A DNA stretch of 64,000 bases from assembly GCF_010537335.1 (NCBI RefSeq), contig NZ_AP019711.1:620001-684000 (forward strand), read 5' to 3'. This stretch comes from Amedibacterium intestinale. Lineage in GTDB: Bacteria; Bacillota_I; Bacilli_A; Erysipelotrichales; Erysipelotrichaceae. The notes under the pieces were generated by a model, which was given only the letters and a program-made list of their open reading frames with translations, ran no database searches and was not told the DNA's origin. Of the stretch, positions 33,318-46,766 are shown piece after piece (positions within the stretch are counted from its first letter, which is position 1; each line of letters begins with the position of its first letter). A program made the position numbers and the translations under genes.

Positions 33318-33411
33318 TCTTGAAAAGTTTATAACTTTAATAAATTTTCATATTTTTTTGTATTTTCTGTTTTTCTTCTCGTATATAAATAGTGAAGAAG
33401 GAGGTGAAGTC

Positions 33412-34404
33412 ATGAAAAAGAAAATAGAACAATTATTATCTATGGCAATGGAACATGATGTCAGTGATATTCATTTTTTAGTGAGAGGAAAATATATGCA
33501 GGTTACGATGCGTACGATTAATGGTTTAGAGGAAATGAATAGTAGTGCTTTTGATATTATGCTTTTTAATTATTTGAAATATTTGTCAAATATGGATTTG
33601 GGAAATGGTGCTAGAGCACAAAGTGGAAATTTTACATATACGTATCAAGGAAATGAATTGTTTTTTCGTTTTTCTTTGCTTTCAACAATCGAAAAACAAA
33701 CAGGTGTATTACGAATTTTAAACGCAAAGAAAGAGTTGGATATCTATTCATTAAGTGAAGATAAAACAATTACGGAATCTTTTTTAAGATGGACACAGTC
33801 AAGATGTGGAATGGTTGTGTTAAGTGGTCCAACAGGGAGTGGGAAAACCACTACACTGCATGCCATATTACACCATATTGCAGAAAAACAAAAACTTCGT
33901 GTTGTTTCTTTGGAAGATCCGATTGAAATCCTAGATGACAGTTATCTACAATTACAAATCAATGAACAATCTCGTTTTTCTTATGAGGAAGGAATTCGTC
34001 AGCTTCTTCGTCATGATCCAGATGTTATTATGATTGGAGAAATTAGAGATGTTTCAACGGCAAGAATGGTATTGCGATGTGCTTTATCTGGACACATGGT
34101 ATTTACGACAGTTCATGCAAAATCATGCGAAGAAACTTTAAAAAGATTAGAAGAGCTGGGAATTCGAAAAGAGGATTTGAAAGGTACTTTAAGTGCTGTT
34201 TGTGCACAACGTATTTATAAAAGAAAAAAAGGAAAGGGGAGAGTCTGTCTATATGAAATCTTGGAGAAAAAAGAATTATCAGGATACTTCCAAAACAATG
34301 AACTTGATAAAAAACATCGAACCATTTTTGACATCATTCAAAATGCAGCTGACAAGGGAATTATCGATAAAGAAGACGCGAAACTTGATTTGTACGCTTC
34401 CTAA
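33412..34404 (+). CDS. comGA: Competence pilus assembly ATPase ComGA
   Basis: A 330-residue type II/IV secretion ATPase (GspE/PilB family) that powers assembly of the DNA-uptake pseudopilus. Walker A GPTGSGKTTT is at about residues 139-148, the Asp box region VSLEDPIEI follows, Walker B is VIMIGEIRD, and the His box is GHMVFTTVHAK. ATG 33412 follows GAAGGAGGTG. It opens the comGA-comGG operon, whose genes overlap or nearly abut. Confidence 0.95.
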   Translation: MKKKIEQLLSMAMEHDVSDIHFLVRGKYMQVTMRTINGLEEMNSSAFDIMLFNYLKYLSNMDLGNGARAQSGNFTYTYQGNELFFRFSLLSTIEKQTGVLRILNAKKELDIYSLSEDKTITESFLRWTQSRCGMVVLSGPTGSGKTTTLHAILHHIAEKQKLRVVSLEDPIEILDDSYLQLQINEQSRFSYEEGIRQLLRHDPDVIMIGEIRDVSTARMVLRCALSGHMVFTTVHAKSCEETLKRLEELGIRKEDLKGTLSAVCAQRIYKRKKGKGRVCLYEILEKKELSGYFQNNELDKKHRTIFDIIQNAADKGIIDKEDAKLDLYAS

Positions 34405-35350
34405 GGAACAATGGATGGGTATCAGTGCTTTGATGAAGGCAGGTTATAATTTTCTAGAAAGTATACAAATATTACAAATACCTAGTAAGGATATAGAAGA
34501 GGCTTTTAAAGAAGGAAAGGATCTAAAAGAAATACTGCTTGATGGACATAAAGGACGATTTTATGAGCATCTTTCTTTTTTTCTGGAAATTAGTGATGTG
34601 GCGAATGCGATTGACAGCGCATTAACAATGGAAGAGTTTGAAAAAGGATGGATACGGTTTCTTGTTTCATCCTGTGCTTATCCCTGTTTTATATTTTTGT
34701 TTGCCTATGTAATGATGGTTGTTTTTTCAACATCTCTGCTTCCGCAAATGATACAGGGCTTTGAATTAACTGAAAGTTCTGGTTTTTTATTGTTCTGTGT
34801 AGAAGCTTTGCAGTATTTTTGTGTGTTTCTGGCAATTGGCGCAGTTGCAAGTGTTTGTTTTTTTCTTGTTTTATATTTATATAAGCCATTACGCTTAAAA
34901 GTATTAATTCGATTGCAAAATAAGATATCTCTATTAAAGGATCATACATCCTATATGTTTGCTGGATATATGAAAGTTTTAGAAAAGCAGGGAGTACCTA
35001 CAAAAAAAGCTATGAAATATATGATGAATGTACAGAAAGATAGCTTGTTTTCACTTTGTATCAATTCTTGTGAAGAACAATTATGCAATGGTATTGATTT
35101 TATAGATGTTTTACAAAAAACAGAAATGTTAAATGAGTTATTCCATAAAATGATTCCTATCGGTATTATAACATCGTCGATAAGTGAATTATTAGAAATT
35201 TTTATGCAGCAGCAGGAACTTATCTGGAAAAAGAAAGTGAAAAAAATAGGTATTTTTATCCAACTGCTTTCTTATAGCTTTGTTGCGATTTTAGTGCTGG
35301 TTGTTTATCAGCTGATGCTGCTGCCCCTATCTATGCTGGAACAATTTTGA
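34298..35350 (+). CDS. comGB: Competence pilus inner-membrane platform protein ComGB
   Basis: About 350 residues of the GspF family, with three main hydrophobic segments (near residues 130-160, 175-205 and 325-348) and two helical cytoplasmic domains. The start is uncertain: the frame is open well into comGA, and ATG 34253, 34298 and 34343 are possible; none has a strong ribosome site, and 34298 is chosen because the alignment-like core (SALMKAGYNFLESIQIL) begins about 45 residues later. It anchors ComGA to the pseudopilus. Confidence 0.85.
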   Translation: MNLIKNIEPFLTSFKMQLTRELSIKKTRNLICTLPKEQWMGISALMKAGYNFLESIQILQIPSKDIEEAFKEGKDLKEILLDGHKGRFYEHLSFFLEISDVANAIDSALTMEEFEKGWIRFLVSSCAYPCFIFLFAYVMMVVFSTSLLPQMIQGFELTESSGFLLFCVEALQYFCVFLAIGAVASVCFFLVLYLYKPLRLKVLIRLQNKISLLKDHTSYMFAGYMKVLEKQGVPTKKAMKYMMNVQKDSLFSLCINSCEEQLCNGIDFIDVLQKTEMLNELFHKMIPIGIITSSISELLEIFMQQQELIWKKKVKKIGIFIQLLSYSFVAILVLVVYQLMLLPLSMLEQF

Positions 35351-35367
35351 AAAAGAGGAGAAGAGTT

Positions 35368-35667
35368 ATGAAAAAAGATGATGGTTTTACAATATTAGAA
35401 ATGATGATTGTTTTATCAGTTATTGCGTTGATTTTTCTTTTAACGCTGCCCAATATACAGCAAAAGGAAGATATTATTAGAAATAAAGGATGCGAAGCTT
35501 TGACAGAGGTTGTAAACTCACAAATTTTGTTATATGAAATTGAAAATTTATCTCCGCCTACTACGATACAGCAGCTTATTAGCAAAGGATATTTAAAGCC
35601 AAGTCAGCAGCGCTGTCCAAGTGGAGATAAAATTACAATTGAAAATGGACAAGCTGTTGTCAGATAA
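35368..35667 (+). CDS. comGC: Major competence pseudopilin ComGC
   Basis: A 99-residue prepilin. A six-residue leader MKKDDG precedes the processing motif G-FTILEMMIV, with the hydrophobic helix IVLSVIALIFLLTLP immediately after it. The rest is a small globular domain (typical ComGC NKGCEALTEVVNSQ). GAGGAGAAG at 35354 precedes ATG 35368. A ComC-type prepilin peptidase, not present in this window, would cleave it. Its end overlaps comGD. Confidence 0.93.
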   Translation: MKKDDGFTILEMMIVLSVIALIFLLTLPNIQQKEDIIRNKGCEALTEVVNSQILLYEIENLSPPTTIQQLISKGYLKPSQQRCPSGDKITIENGQAVVR

Positions 35668-36040
35668 AGGTTTTACATTGCTGGAAATGATACTTGTTTT
35701 GAGTGTTGTTTGTGTTTTGCTGCTATTTGGCGGGGCGATTGTATCGAAAAATAAGACTGCATTTATTTATCAGATGAAAATCATAAGAGAAAATATAACA
35801 GAAACGCAGATAAAAGCTGTATCTGAAAAAGATAGAAAACAGATTCAATTTTTGTCTGATCGAGTTCTTATAGATGATAAAATTTTAAAATATCCAAAAG
35901 AAATGCAGTGTTCTTTTTTGGGTTTTCATTTTACAGAAAAAGGAACGATTTCAAAAGCAGGTACGACTACCTGTACAATGGAAGGTATAACAAGAAAGAT
36001 GGTGTTTCAGCTTGGAAGTGGACAAAGTGACATCCGATAA
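35645..36040 (+). CDS. comGD: Competence minor pseudopilin ComGD
   Basis: A 131-residue prepilin with the motif DKG-FTLLEMILV and the hydrophobic helix VLSVVCVLLLFGGAIV. ATG 35645 lies inside comGC; GTG 35621 is an alternative and neither has a strong ribosome site, suggesting coupling to comGC translation. It is a minor component of the competence pseudopilus, assigned by position and motif. Confidence 0.85.
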   Translation: MDKLLSDKGFTLLEMILVLSVVCVLLLFGGAIVSKNKTAFIYQMKIIRENITETQIKAVSEKDRKQIQFLSDRVLIDDKILKYPKEMQCSFLGFHFTEKGTISKAGTTTCTMEGITRKMVFQLGSGQSDIR

Positions 36041-36194
36041 TGGATTTGTGCTTATAGAAGCGTTGTTTTTACTCATGATTTCTATTGTTTTGGTACATTT
36101 AACCTTATCATTTTGTATGTCTTATGTACATTATGAAACAGTAGTGGATAACGTTTTTCAAAATAAAGAAATGGAGCTTATTTATGAAAGATGA
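36027..36194 (+). CDS. comGE: Competence minor pseudopilin ComGE-like
   Basis: A short protein of about 55 residues with the prepilin-type motif SDNG-FVLIEAL followed by one hydrophobic helix (LFLLMISIVLVHLTLSF). It has no ATG start: GTG 36027 is chosen because GGAAG lies eight bases upstream and the resulting six-residue leader matches ComGC and ComGF; TTG 36012 and GTG 36018 are alternatives. The assignment rests mainly on its place between comGD and comGF. It overlaps both neighbours. Confidence 0.7.
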   Translation: MTSDNGFVLIEALFLLMISIVLVHLTLSFCMSYVHYETVVDNVFQNKEMELIYER

Positions 36195-36576
36195 TAGTGG
36201 TTTTACATTGCTGGAAGTATTAATTGCTTTACAGATTGTCCTAGTTTGTATGTTATTTGTTTTTCCTTGTGTGCATGCTATGAAAGTTTTAAGTGAAGAT
36301 AGCAGACAAACAGATGATGCAATGGCTTTATATTTTCTTCGAAGAGAATTGGCGGCAGCCAGCAGTATACATCTTTCTTCATCTGCATTGGACTATGAGG
36401 CTTTCAAAGAAGTGAAAAAGCTGCAATTGCATAATGGACGTTTAGTGTCCATGGCGGGATATGAGATATTTTTTCAAAATATTGATGATGCATCTTTTTA
36501 TGAAGAAAATAACTGTATATGGGTAAATTGGAAAAGAAAGGAACATGTGTATGAAGCGATTCTTGTATGCCGATGA
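36184..36576 (+). CDS. comGF: Competence minor pseudopilin ComGF
   Basis: A 130-residue prepilin with leader MKDDSG, motif G-FTLLEVLIAL and hydrophobic helix IVLVCMLFVFPCV. The globular C-terminal part includes LRRELAAASS and GYEIFFQN. It overlaps comGE by 11 bases and comGG by 26, so the whole pseudopilin set is probably translated by coupling. Confidence 0.85.
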   Translation: MKDDSGFTLLEVLIALQIVLVCMLFVFPCVHAMKVLSEDSRQTDDAMALYFLRRELAAASSIHLSSSALDYEAFKEVKKLQLHNGRLVSMAGYEIFFQNIDDASFYEENNCIWVNWKRKEHVYEAILVCR

Positions 36577-36961
36577 TGGATTTTTCAGTGTTTATGCCAT
36601 GCTTTTATTAAGCATTGCCATGCTGTTTTCAACTTTTCTTTTTTGTAAGATACATACTGCTTATACGATGACGAAATTATCCTATAGTGATATTTTTGTT
36701 TTATATAAAGTGAATTCCTATTTAAAGCAAAATCCAGAAGAAGTGCCAGATGAAATGATGAATGAGGAAAATGAAGAAAGCCTGGAAGATTCTAATATAA
36801 CAGAAGAAGAATTGTTTTATAATGATGCATATATTTTTATTACATATGATGATCAGGAAGCTATTTGTAAAGTAAAGGAAAAAAACCAAAGTTATGTTAT
36901 GTATATTACTTATAATAAGCAGGAAAAAAAGATTTTAGCGTATAGATATGAACAAATGTGA
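36551..36961 (+). CDS. comGG: Competence minor pseudopilin ComGG-like
   Basis: About 136 residues with a prepilin-like N-terminus (YADDG-FFSVYAML) and hydrophobic helix MLLLSIAMLFSTFLF. The glutamate at position +5 of mature pseudopilins is absent, which fits ComGG-type tip proteins. The C-terminal half is very acidic (NEENEESLEDSNITEEE). ATG 36551 is favoured over 36545 by spacing from AAAGGA. Assigned by position as the last comG pseudopilin. Confidence 0.7.
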   Translation: MKRFLYADDGFFSVYAMLLLSIAMLFSTFLFCKIHTAYTMTKLSYSDIFVLYKVNSYLKQNPEEVPDEMMNEENEESLEDSNITEEELFYNDAYIFITYDDQEAICKVKEKNQSYVMYITYNKQEKKILAYRYEQM

Positions 36962-37248: not shown

Positions 37249-37276
37249 TTGACAAATACCGCAAAACCATTAAAAT
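37249..37276 (+). promoter_or_regulatory. Probable promoter of efp
   Basis: TTGACA 37249-37254 and TAAAAT 37271-37276 with a 16-base spacer, 40 bases upstream of ATG 37316. Confidence 0.65.
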
Positions 37277-37315
37277 AAGAACAGTAATGTTATAAACAAG
37301 GAAAGGTGAATAAAG

Positions 37316-37876
37316 ATGATCAGTTCAAATGATTTGAAACCAGGTATGACCATTCAGCAGGATGGAGAGTTGTTTATTGTTTTGGAACAGAGTCAAAATA
37401 AAACTGCACGTTCTGCTATGGTTGTTAAGGCAAAAGTTAGAAATTTAAGAACAGGTTCTAATGTAGAACTATCCTGGGGAGGCGGAGATAAGATTCAGCC
37501 TGCACAGATTGATAAAAAAGAAATGCAGTATTTATATGATACAGAAGACGCATTGGTATTCATGGATAATGAAACTTACGAACAAATAGAAATTCCTAAG
37601 GATCACTTGAAATGGGAAATTAATTTCTTAAAACCAAATGATAATGTAAATATTTCGATGTTTGAAGGAGAAATTCTTGGAATTATTCTTCCAGATAAGG
37701 TGTCTTTGCGCGTAGTAGAGTGTGAACCTGCGGTAAAAGGTGATACAGCTACTTCCGCTAGTAAAAATGCTGTGCTTGAATCTGGATTGGAAATCAAAGT
37801 TCCATTGTTCATCTCTCAGGATGAAATGATCGTTGTTTCTACTGCAGATGGGAAATATTCAGGAAGAGCTAAATAG
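37316..37876 (+). CDS. efp: Elongation factor P with Arg at position 32
   Basis: A 186-residue EF-P with the normal three-domain layout (KOW-like N domain, two OB folds) that relieves ribosomes stalled at proline runs. Ungapped comparison with the B. subtilis protein places R32 (in NKTARSAM) exactly where Lys-32 in PGKG is normally modified, and the flanking PG-G residues are also replaced (T-A-R-S). Other hallmarks such as MQYLY, ESGLEIKVPLFI and TADGKYSGR are intact. An AAGG ribosome site precedes ATG 37316. A terminator follows. Confidence 0.96.
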   Translation: MISSNDLKPGMTIQQDGELFIVLEQSQNKTARSAMVVKAKVRNLRTGSNVELSWGGGDKIQPAQIDKKEMQYLYDTEDALVFMDNETYEQIEIPKDHLKWEINFLKPNDNVNISMFEGEILGIILPDKVSLRVVECEPAVKGDTATSASKNAVLESGLEIKVPLFISQDEMIVVSTADGKYSGRAK

Positions 37877-37877
37877 T

Positions 37878-37903
37878 AAAAAAGCTGCTAGTCAGCTTTT
37901 TTT
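37878..37903 (+). terminator. efp terminator
   Basis: AAAAAAGCTG (37878-37887) / CAGCTTTTTTT (37893-37903), with the T tract forming part of the stem. Confidence 0.85.
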
Positions 37904-42632: not shown

Positions 42633-44111
42633 ATGGATACCACAGAAATACTAAAAAATATTGCACAAAGATGCGGTGGTGATATATACCTTGGAGTTGT
42701 AGGGCCTGTACGTGTTGGAAAATCTACGTTTATACGTGAATTTATGGAAAAAGCAGTGATTCCTTATGTAAATGATGAATATGAAAAAGCACGTATGATT
42801 GATGAATTACCACAGGCTGGTATGGGTAAAACGATTATGACAACAGAGCCAAAGTTTGTGCCCAATACAGCTGCATCGATTACTTTTGATGATGGATTTC
42901 ATGTTAATGTAAGACTGGTTGACTGTGTAGGTTATGTCATTCCAGAAGCAAAAGGCTATAAGGATGAGGATGGTGTGCGTATGGTGCGTACGCCATGGAG
43001 TGAAGAACCTATACCATTTCATGAAGCTGCAAAAACAGGAACACAAAAGGTTATTCAGGATCACTCTACAATTGGAATCGTGGTGACAACCGATGGAAGT
43101 ATCTCTGATTTAAGCAGAGAAGCGTATATTGAAGCAGAAGCAGAAGTCATTGATGAATTAAAATCCATTGGCAAACCATTCATTGTTATTGTAAATAGCA
43201 AGGATATACATTCACCAACTTGTACAAGTGTAGTATCGAAATTAAAAGATAAATACGATGTGCCAGTTTTAGCCGTAGCCGTTAACCATATGAGCGAACA
43301 GGATATACATGATATTTTAAGAGAGGCATTATATGAATTCCCAGTTTCTGAAATTAATATTAATATGCCTAAGTGGGTTGCGGTTTTAAGTGATGAGCAC
43401 TGGCTGAAGAAGAGTTTTCAGGAATCAATTGAACAAAGTATGTCAAGTGTAGAAAGATTAAGGGAAGTAGAAGCAATTAGTGATGTGTTAAATGAAAATG
43501 AATATATTGAAAGCAGCAATTTATCTACAATCGATACAGGGCAGGGAATTGTTCATGTTGATATTACGGTACGGGCAGGACTTTATAATGAAGTATTAAA
43601 AGAAATCATCGGTAAAGATATTAAAGATAAAGCTGAATTGATGGAGCTAATGCAGGAATACAGTAAAGCGAAAAAAGAGTATGATACGATTAGTTCTGCC
43701 TTGCAGATGGTAAAACAGACGGGATATGGTTTTGCCAGCGCATCATTACAAGATATTCAATTAAGCAAACCGGAAATTATTAAACAGGGAAGCAGGTATG
43801 GAGTAAAGTTAAAGGCTATTGCGCCTAGCATTCACATGATCAAAGTTGATGTGGAAAGCAGTTTTGAACCGATTATTGGTTCAAAGCAGCAAAGTGAAGA
43901 GTTAGTAAAATATTTGCTTCGAGACGATGGCACAAATGATGACTCTATCTGGGATAGTGATATCTTTGGAAGAAAATTATCAGATTTAATTAGAGATGGA
44001 TTAAATGCGAAACTTTCAATGATTCCAGAAGCTGCGCGTGTTCGTTTACAGGATATTCTTACAAAACTTGTGAATAAAGGAAAAGGAAATGTAATCGCTA
44101 TTGTATTATAA
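42633..44111 (+). CDS. spoIVA: Stage IV sporulation protein A (spore coat morphogenetic ATPase)
   Basis: A 492-residue ATPase that polymerises on the forespore surface and founds the spore coat. It starts with the typical DTTEILKNIAQRCGGDIYLG and has Walker A GPVRVGKST at about residues 25-33. The DCVGY and NSKD motifs follow in the nucleotide-binding domain, and the C-terminal middle and anchoring domains are full length. AGGGAGGA precedes ATG 42633. The spoIVA-hup order is as in B. subtilis. Confidence 0.96.
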   Translation: MDTTEILKNIAQRCGGDIYLGVVGPVRVGKSTFIREFMEKAVIPYVNDEYEKARMIDELPQAGMGKTIMTTEPKFVPNTAASITFDDGFHVNVRLVDCVGYVIPEAKGYKDEDGVRMVRTPWSEEPIPFHEAAKTGTQKVIQDHSTIGIVVTTDGSISDLSREAYIEAEAEVIDELKSIGKPFIVIVNSKDIHSPTCTSVVSKLKDKYDVPVLAVAVNHMSEQDIHDILREALYEFPVSEININMPKWVAVLSDEHWLKKSFQESIEQSMSSVERLREVEAISDVLNENEYIESSNLSTIDTGQGIVHVDITVRAGLYNEVLKEIIGKDIKDKAELMELMQEYSKAKKEYDTISSALQMVKQTGYGFASASLQDIQLSKPEIIKQGSRYGVKLKAIAPSIHMIKVDVESSFEPIIGSKQQSEELVKYLLRDDGTNDDSIWDSDIFGRKLSDLIRDGLNAKLSMIPEAARVRLQDILTKLVNKGKGNVIAIVL

Positions 44112-45354: not shown

Positions 45355-46140
45355 TTAAGCAGTTATTAAGGATTGATTCCTGTATTGGACAGGAGTTAGT
45401 CCTTTTAATTTTGCTGTTATTCTTTGTTTATTATAATAATCAATATATTCTTCCATCGCAACCTTTAAATCATCTAATGTTTTAAAACTATATTCATACC
45501 CATAAAACATTTCATTCTTCATCCTTCCAAAAAAATTCTCCATTGGTGAATTATCTAAACAGTTCCCTTTCCTTGACATCGATTGTTGAATTCTTTTTTC
45601 TTCAAGCATTTCATGATATGACTGCATCTGATATTGCCAGCCCTGATCGCTATGAAATTTCAATCCTTCTAAATTGTCATATTTATCAAATGCTTGTTTA
45701 AGCATATCTTTTATTTGTTCAAAATTTGGACTTTTTGATATATTGAATGATACTATTTCTCGATTATGCAAATCTAATATCGGTGATAGATAAAGCTTGC
45801 CTGCTGCTATATGAAACTCTGATATATCTGTAGACCATATTTCATTGCATCTTGTTGTATTGAAGTTTCTATCATAATATGTTTTATGTTTTTCTTCGTC
45901 TACTACTTTACTAAGTAATAAATTTTTTGTTGTACCATTCATATCGCCTTTATATGATTTATATCTTGCTTTTGGTGTTTGTCCATATAATCCCATTATA
46001 GACATTAATCGTTTGACTTTCTTATGATTGATCGTATAACCCATATTTCTTAGCTCCAAAGTTATTCTACGATACCCATATCGTTCCTTATGTGTATAAA
46101 AGATATGGATGATAATATTCATTATTTCATCATTTTTCAT
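45355..46140 (-). CDS. IS150-type transposase catalytic part (OrfB)
   Basis: A 261-residue integrase-core protein from ATG 46140. The DDE triad is seen in STDISEF, KFHSDQGWQY and NSPMENFFGR, with the HTH_21-like segment RYGYRRITLELRNMGY upstream. The same frame stays open upstream into orfA (reading EEKVTIVCELQLKYSLK and LKRSTYYYTLSK), so the functional product is almost surely an OrfAB fusion made by -1 frameshifting near the orfA stop. It catalyses strand transfer of the element. Confidence 0.93.
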   Translation of the reverse strand: MKNDEIMNIIIHIFYTHKERYGYRRITLELRNMGYTINHKKVKRLMSIMGLYGQTPKARYKSYKGDMNGTTKNLLLSKVVDEEKHKTYYDRNFNTTRCNEIWSTDISEFHIAAGKLYLSPILDLHNREIVSFNISKSPNFEQIKDMLKQAFDKYDNLEGLKFHSDQGWQYQMQSYHEMLEEKRIQQSMSRKGNCLDNSPMENFFGRMKNEMFYGYEYSFKTLDDLKVAMEEYIDYYNKQRITAKLKGLTPVQYRNQSLITA

Positions 46141-46247
46141 ATCTTTGTTAGTCTTTGATAATGTGTAGTAATAAGTTGAACGTTTTAATCCTGATATTTT
46201 AAGAAGAATCTTTAATGAATATTTAAGCTGCAGTTCACAAACAATCG

Positions 46248-46766
46248 TTACTTTTTCTTCGATTGTTGATTTTTCCTTTTCTGAACTGCAGCACGCAGCT
46301 TTTTTAAGTATTCATTCTCTGCTTCTAGATACTGATTTTTATTTTCAAGATATTTTATTTTTTCTTCAGGTGACATATCTTCATATTTTTTATTGAATTG
46401 ATTTTCTTTGTTCATAGTAGATGGTCTTCCTTTCTTTTTTTCTACTATAACATATCCATTCTCTTTGTACGAGTTAATCCAGTTATTTAATAATCCATCA
46501 CTAGTCAAACCAAATTCAATAGCTGTACTCGTTGATGATTGACCGTCAATAAGGACTTTATTAATAATTTCTAATTTTAATTCTGGTGAATAATAATTAT
46601 TTTTGTTAGATCTTAAAATATCAAATCCATGTCTATCTATTAATCTAACTAAATAATTAATCTTACTAGATTTTATTTGATATTTTTTAGATAAAGACGA
46701 TACAGTTTCTCCTTGTTTTCGTTTTTTATATAATTCTATTTTTTGTTCTCTTGTCAGTTTTGCCAT
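46248..46766 (-). CDS. IS150-type transposase DNA-binding part (OrfA)
   Basis: A 172-residue protein with two helix-turn-helix units (residues about 5-45 with SSLSKKYQIKSSKINYLV, and 60-110 with STSTAIEFGLTSDGLLNNW) and a C-terminal leucine-zipper-like coiled coil (IKYLENKNQYLEAENEYLKK). It recognises the IS ends. The A-rich stretch GAAAAAG at its stop is a plausible -1 slip site leading into orfB. Confidence 0.92.
   Translation of the reverse strand: MAKLTREQKIELYKKRKQGETVSSLSKKYQIKSSKINYLVRLIDRHGFDILRSNKNNYYSPELKLEIINKVLIDGQSSTSTAIEFGLTSDGLLNNWINSYKENGYVIVEKKKGRPSTMNKENQFNKKYEDMSPEEKIKYLENKNQYLEAENEYLKKLRAAVQKRKNQQSKKK

Follow-up and report, generated by a model that had tools for sequence, protein, structure and literature searches.

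In most descriptions elongation factor P (EF-P) depends on a modification of its tip, and the gene at positions 37316-37876 of the 64,000-nucleotide stretch of Amedibacterium intestinale DNA analyzed here (the window) raises the question of how an EF-P that carries arginine at that place works in its lineage. The product of this gene, called EF-P1, is a full EF-P of 186 amino acids. It scored 223.7 bits against the efp equivalog model TIGR00038, for which the membership cut-off is 185.8, and it exceeded the cut-offs of PF08207, PF01132 and PF09285, which are all three of the EF-P Pfam domains. The features of the locus are as follows.

37249-37276, forward strand: promoter-like TTGACA-16-TAAAAT with 11 of 12 matches; the scan gave 4 sites against a shuffle mean of 4.1, no excess
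37300-37306, forward strand: Shine-Dalgarno-like ggaaagg, 9 nt 5' of the ATG, found by eye
37316-37876, forward strand: efp1, elongation factor P of 186 aa, the type with R32 and without P30, by open reading frame, TIGR00038 and three EF-P Pfam domains
37322-37495, forward strand: KOW-like N domain PF08207, residues 3-60, by Pfam match
37397-37420, forward strand: beta3-loop-beta4, N28 K29 T30 A31 R32 S33 A34 M35, by codon table, with a predicted loop between strands 18-27 and 36-43
37409-37411, forward strand: CGT codon of R32, aligned with K32 of S. aureus EF-P, by codon table and HMMER alignment
37517-37678, forward strand: OB domain PF01132, residues 68-121, by Pfam match
37700-37867, forward strand: C-terminal domain PF09285, residues 129-184, by Pfam match
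37880-37903, forward strand: possible intrinsic terminator, aaaagctg...cagctttt and a T run, found by eye and absent from the scan output

Directly upstream of efp1, at 33358-36961 of the window, lie genes of a comG-like competence pilus, coding for T2SSE, T2SSF and three pseudopilins with N-methylation motifs, an arrangement common to part of the relatives. The window also holds a SpoIVA gene with all three Pfam domains, a sporulation marker (42633-44111), and on the reverse strand a transposase pair (45355-46766) of an rve integrase core protein and an HTH_Tnp_1 protein, probably of IS3 type.

The preliminary description of this DNA had placed arginine at tip position 32 through a gapless alignment in which TARS replaces the PGKG of B. 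subtilis EF-P. Codons 28-35 of efp1 read AAT AAA ACT GCA CGT TCT GCT ATG, and the gapless replacement holds in HMMER against S. aureus EF-P (PDB 6rji), the reference used here rather than the B. subtilis protein, with R32 opposite K32 of HVKPGKG. An AlphaFold2 model built on a 13-row alignment (pLDDT 88.2 on average and 77 over residues 31-40) has predicted strands at residues 18-27 and 36-43, which would make residues 28-35 the loop, with residues 31 and 32 in its middle and K29 off the tip. With this model, the 19 best Foldseek matches were all EF-P or EfpL chains, the second being Thermus thermophilus EF-P. Codon table, alignment and modeled loop agree in bearing out arginine at the tip, and K29 as the tip residue was rejected on the alignment and the predicted strands. 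The interval 37406-37417 formerly assigned to TARS covers A31-R32-S33-A34, a slip of one codon, and TARS proper occupies 37403-37414. All 13 rows of the alignment have N28, K29 and A31, so that a modification of K29 is conceivable; outside these rows, KQGRLS loops have G31 and Mollicutes have S28.

An error of sequencing or assembly in codon 32 would produce the same reading of the tip, and nothing was found in its favor. The loop NKTARS recurs in many independent assemblies and is common to Longicatena caecimuris and Holdemanella biformis among the best 80 loci of 576 relatives, a selection biased to close ones. Such an error was ruled out on this recurrence, its probability being negligible.

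The tip was then compared over 60 genomes, consisting of the own genome and 59 relatives. An EF-P1 orthologue was found in 57 of them and was not detected in three of the 60 (G017, G028 and G044), of which G017 stayed blank in every search, even for families that occur in the other 59, and is therefore probably not searchable. Position 32 is arginine in 38 and methionine in 18, and one orthologue on a truncated contig was unread, so that all 56 readable orthologues have Arg or Met at the tip. The R32 loops of this set are NKTARS, NKTARA, NKQARG and NKQGRL, and the M32 loops are NKTAMRQ, NKTAMRG, NKTAMRK and NKTAMAK. Spiroplasma and Williamsoniiplasma, again among the best 80 loci of the 576 mostly close relatives, have SKSGR or SKTGR tips, and the loop SK[SQ]GRGQ is present in Spiroplasma citri, Metamycoplasma orale, Mycoplasmopsis cynos and Mesomycoplasma hyorhinis. 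In S. citri and the three mycoplasmas a gene for an 'MMB_0454 family protein' lies directly 3' of efp (L203-L206). Rarer tips beside Arg and Met in related Bacilli EF-P1 proteins are Gln and Asn. The arginine had been taken as an isolated Gram-positive exception, which is contradicted by the 56 of 56 readable orthologues with Arg or Met and by the arginine in the Spiroplasma and mycoplasma EF-Ps read. EF-P1 is the commonest EF-P of its lineage and probably its resident housekeeping copy. In the EF-P1 proteins examined from Erysipelotrichales, Spiroplasma and mycoplasmas, and related Bacilli, K32 and the accompanying P30 have given way to Arg or Met and, in rare cases, to Gln or Asn.

In a wider phylum sample of 392 genomes, a site coding for exactly HVKPGKG was found in 105 and in none of the other 287, a count in which the exact pattern misses variants and five genomes are without detected EF-P. 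Twenty stretches fetched from this sample, picked non-randomly from places of EF-P matches, include KSARS (R32), KSANS (N32), NKTAQRQ (Q32) and a shorter VLQNK loop. Judging by the loop letters, the KSARS forms may be intermediates between KPGKG and KTARS. The shortened loop, HVLQNK-VAY, occurs at L242-L245, L145 and L159, and L242-L245 represent the second EF-P of the f14 genomes G307, G317, G367 and G129, each of which has two EF-P matches. A third, distant EF-P-like protein with an Asn tip (IKAGNGAGY) and 27% identity to the lysine-type EF-P2 described below was seen at L082 (G023:C35:6169-6675); the genome G023 is given as 6% contaminated, so the protein may be foreign.

The genome also encodes a canonical K32 EF-P beyond the window available to the preliminary description, EF-P2, with the loop HVKPGKG and Lys32, on the reverse strand at G000:C1:1389880-1390434. 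EF-P2 is present in 23 of the 60 genomes. In G044, given as 100% complete, EF-P2 was detected and EF-P1 was not, a possible natural replacement. Directly downstream of efp2, mostly at 16-25 nt, an SDR gene of the FabG/YmfI superfamily was found at 47 of 47 EF-P2-clade loci (33 distinct genomes by hand count), against 0 of 113 non-PGKG loci, several genomes being counted twice, and 2 of 36 other K32 loci (L157 and L196); seven of the 203 EF-P rows, with short downstream sequence or an unreadable loop, were left out of the count. A truncated EF-P2 at L116, outside this count, likewise has the SDR. At L116 the efp2-SDR pair (L116:3-1003) and an M32 efp1 (L116:3001-3555) lie less than 3 kb apart on one contig.

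The linked SDR of the own genome scored 161.9 bits against the YmfI equivalog model NF047420, below the cut-off of 238, and those of L157 and L196 scored 164.7 and 169.0 bits, so it is the position of the reductase, not its family, that makes it YmfI-like. The best NF047420 match anywhere in the own genome reached 179.8 bits. This model matched SDRs in 59 of the 60 genomes, with a single one over the cut-off, in G029, a genome without EF-P2; the model being uninformative, linkage to efp was used instead.

The third member of the unit is a protein of PF06838, presumably the YnbB family, as the PF06838 search also matched B. subtilis. The copy beside the own efp2 scored 513.9 bits and qualifies as a YnbB homologue. 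Full-length PF06838 proteins of 490 to 526 bits are present in 23 of 23 EF-P2 genomes and in 0 of the 37 others, where the best match is 32.2 bits; the line at 490 bits was set by hand in the score gap, whereas 30 of the 60 genomes and 62 of the 392 in the phylum sample exceed the curated cut-off of 24.2 bits, the weak matches reaching at most 43.4 bits. In 21 of the 23 genomes ynbB lies within about 4 kb of the SDR on the same contig, and in G016 and G044 the two are on different contigs. The own efp2, the FabG-like SDR and a convergent ynbB form a compact module (G000:C1:1387887-1390434; L215:7208-9944). Among 11 fetched efp2 regions, ten of them chosen with knowledge of the efp2-ynbB pair and one (G236) without it, only the efp2, SDR and ynbB families were common to all, an NMN-transporter-domain protein was common to six, and the surroundings beyond the module differed.

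The same association was found in the phylum sample, in which PF06838 proteins of at least 490 bits occur in 34 of the 105 HVKPGKG genomes versus 0 of the 287 others, the next best score being 43.4 bits (Fisher p about 4e-22, uncorrected for relatedness and physical linkage). Since 71 of the 105 HVKPGKG genomes are without YnbB, K32 does not in general require this protein. That ynbB and the reductase strictly accompany efp2 supports YnbB as a dedicated EF-P-modifying enzyme, and the lysine-modification genes track the K32 paralogue, not the Arg protein. GsaB was sought as a further partner through the HemL family. The HemL model, by which HemL and GsaB are indistinguishable, was over its cut-off in 7 of 60 genomes, namely in 2 of the 23 with EF-P2 (G048 and the own genome) and 5 of the 37 without it, or in 17 of 23 and 15 of 37 when weaker matches are included, which does not separate the two groups and leaves GsaB no more than a candidate partner.

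Two trees relate these proteins. In the first, from which the loop columns were omitted, 173 distinct proteins were thinned at 80% identity to 91 and joined by the window protein to give 92 rows; the 52 R/M rows form one clade (support 100/99) and the 38 K rows all fall on the other side. In the second tree, 16 rows with SARS, SANS, AQRQ, VLQNK and other loops were added and three distant K rows removed. The core R/M clade was retained with 57 rows (100/99), the KSARS and KSANS groups stood on the backbone without resolution, and the topology implies at least two changes between K and non-K, with a single origin not rejected (p-AU 0.34). EF-P2 clusters with K32 EF-Ps of Bacilli, apart from EF-P1, and is thus not a recent duplicate of EF-P1.

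Whether arginine-directed or lysine-directed enzymes accompany EF-P1 was addressed by the searches that the preliminary description had proposed for EarP and EpmA. Searched in all 60 genomes including the own, EarP (PF10093) was found in none. Because EarP also matched in none of the 14 control genomes, a separate positive control was run and matched in 3 of 3 records, a 2.17 Mb Neisseria record classed as a plasmid and two plasmids with annotated earP; an Acinetobacter record tried for the same purpose has a K-type EF-P. EpmA (TIGR00462) was above its cut-off in 0 of 60 genomes and in 2 of 14 control genomes, while matches below the cut-off in 59 of the 60 are most likely lysyl- and aspartyl/asparaginyl-tRNA synthetases. 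Furthermore, the neighbors of 51 named non-PGKG loci were clustered within flanks of at most 3 kb, and no obvious candidate modifier appeared among the 18 largest clusters, none of which lies near more than 16 of the 51 loci; the clustering misses some families, given that EF-P itself was grouped in 44 of 51. By eye, the recurrent neighbors were comG-type genes, Der and one membrane protein; M32 loci shared genes for a hydrolase, for a topoisomerase and for two enzymes of metabolism.

These results bear on the explanation that R32 of EF-P1 is modified by an unrecognized enzyme unrelated to EarP. Its loop has R32 and is without P30, as in EarP-type EF-Ps (PMC6544042), and arginine is retained in 38 of the 56 readable orthologues as well as in those EF-Ps of Spiroplasma and mycoplasmas that were read. 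It is countered by the methionine that replaces R32 in 18 of 56 orthologues within the same GTDB family, by the lack of EarP in the 60 genomes and by the neighborhoods of the 51 loci, in whose 18 largest clusters no modifier was obvious. Methionine at residue 32 makes a conserved modification there less plausible. An enzyme without known relatives may escape homology searches, so EF-P1 may be either unmodified or the bearer of an unrecognized modification, and the modified form is considered unlikely.

The preferred reading, held with a probability of roughly two in three, is that EF-P1 is a housekeeping EF-P that works without tip modification, next to EF-P2 as a separate lysine-modified EF-P. 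EF-P1 would enter the ribosomal E site like any EF-P, and its bare tip, R32 or in relatives M32 with a nearby Arg or Lys, would touch the CCA end of the P-site tRNA with no tip modification needed. EF-P2, a lysine-modified EF-P, would have been gained or kept as the efp2-reductase-ynbB cassette and would add a second EF-P activity in the genomes holding it.

Published work on other EF-Ps lends this account some precedent. R32 of T. thermophilus EF-P contacts C75 (PMC2821294), and the E. coli EfpL tip R33, in the loop SPTARGAAT, is unmodified according to mass spectrometry (PMC11611912), an analogy under which work in the unmodified state would be the simplest account for EF-P1. K32R in B. subtilis EF-P suppresses the swarming defect of ymfI (PMC5885033), so an R32 EF-P is not harmful in that species. 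Mollicutes are described as retaining EF-P without YjeA, YjeK or YfcM (PMC4014445). In E. coli EF-P, K34M abolishes activity and K34R leaves no more than about 20% of it, and the unmodified EF-P of P. putida acts as an inhibitor (PMC6544042); an unmodified Arg or Met tip is therefore not generally sufficient, and adaptation of the loop and the ribosome would be needed.

Genomes that hold EF-P1 alone allow a further comparison. EF-P1 is the only detected EF-P with a readable tip in 34 of the 60 genomes, 22 with R and 12 with M. As the YnbB homologue and the reductase are confined to the K32 paralogue, these genomes are without full-length YnbB, and they are also without EarP and without EpmA above the cut-off. 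A site coding for PPPNVTG, presumably the ValRS motif, was found in 30 of the 34 (12 of 12 with M, 18 of 22 with R), so that poly-proline synthesis seems still required; the exact site is absent in four of the 34, two of which are less than 70% complete.

This bears on another explanation, in which EF-P1, like EfpL, has become a specialist remote from poly-proline rescue and the general work falls to EF-P2. In its favor are the canonical loop and the linked genes retained by EF-P2, which may suffice in G044, given as 100% complete, since EF-P1 was undetected there. Such a division of labor is at odds with the 34 genomes in which EF-P1 stands alone, 30 of them with the PPPNVTG site, and with the Mollicutes, which keep EF-P, listed as an essential protein of M. 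genitalium and M. pneumoniae (PMC4014445; the tips of these two species fall outside the tip survey here). Drift to a specialist is accordingly judged improbable. More tentatively, and with the balance somewhat against it as a whole, the unmodified EF-P1 and lysine-type EF-P2 could be extended into a two-EF-P system, in which a modification-free EF-P1 would serve across Erysipelotrichales and Mollicutes, an efp2/FabG-like reductase/ynbB unit, gained and lost as a whole, would carry lysine modification of EF-P2 by YnbB and the reductase without GsaB, possibly of a new non-aminated type, and the two factors would serve different stall motifs.

Alternative EF-P tips are already known in aggregate: EF-Ps of organisms without yjeA/yjeK were given as 24.1% Arg and 3.4% Met (PMC2821294), and other tips are also reported in PMC11611912. 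In the titles, abstract starts and passages of open-licence literature searched, no description was found of the R/M tip loss across this lineage, nor of the efp2-SDR-ynbB linkage or the two-EF-P arrangement. One lineage, mycoplasmas included, has lost the modified EF-P residue, with Arg and Met interchanging within one family. Whether an EF-P works unmodified, and which features of loop and ribosome allow this, can be tested directly here, the K32 paralogue of the same cell serving as a natural internal control.

Among known systems, the Bacillus-type K32 EF-P with 5-aminopentanol (YmfI, YnbB, GsaB), an adduct of 101.08 Da (PMC5885033), resembles EF-P1 in family, fold and gapless alignment to S. 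aureus EF-P but differs in that EF-P1 is without K32 and P30; it resembles EF-P2 of the own genome in HVKPGKG, the YnbB homologue and the SDR, except that the linked SDR falls below the YmfI cut-off and GsaB is only a candidate partner. The EarP-type, rhamnosylated R32 EF-P of Pseudomonas, Neisseria and Shewanella shares with EF-P1 the Arg tip and the lack of proline at -2 (T30, R32) (PMC6544042), whereas here EarP is found in none of the 60 genomes and Arg and Met swap at the tip; EF-P1 groups with EF-Ps of Bacilli and Mollicutes, in trees that had no EarP-type rows. The beta-lysylated EF-P is defined by a Lys tip with EpmA, and EF-P1 has R32, with EpmA above the cut-off in none of the 60 genomes. 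A hypusine route by way of DHS would also require a lysine. EfpL (YeiP) of E. coli shares with EF-P1 the loop TAR and an Arg tip, which in EfpL is unmodified (PMC11611912), but EF-P1 has no loop extension and no P30, and it scored 126.5 bits against the NCBIfam EfpL model (cut-off 216), which together with the EfpL hallmark of a loop longer than seven residues places it outside that family. Unlike E. coli EfpL, EF-P1 is no side paralogue but the commonest EF-P of its lineage. Thermus thermophilus EF-P (1UEB, 4V6A), the second-best Foldseek match, has the same Arg32 tip as EF-P1 (PMC2821294) in a different phylum, one outside the trees built here.
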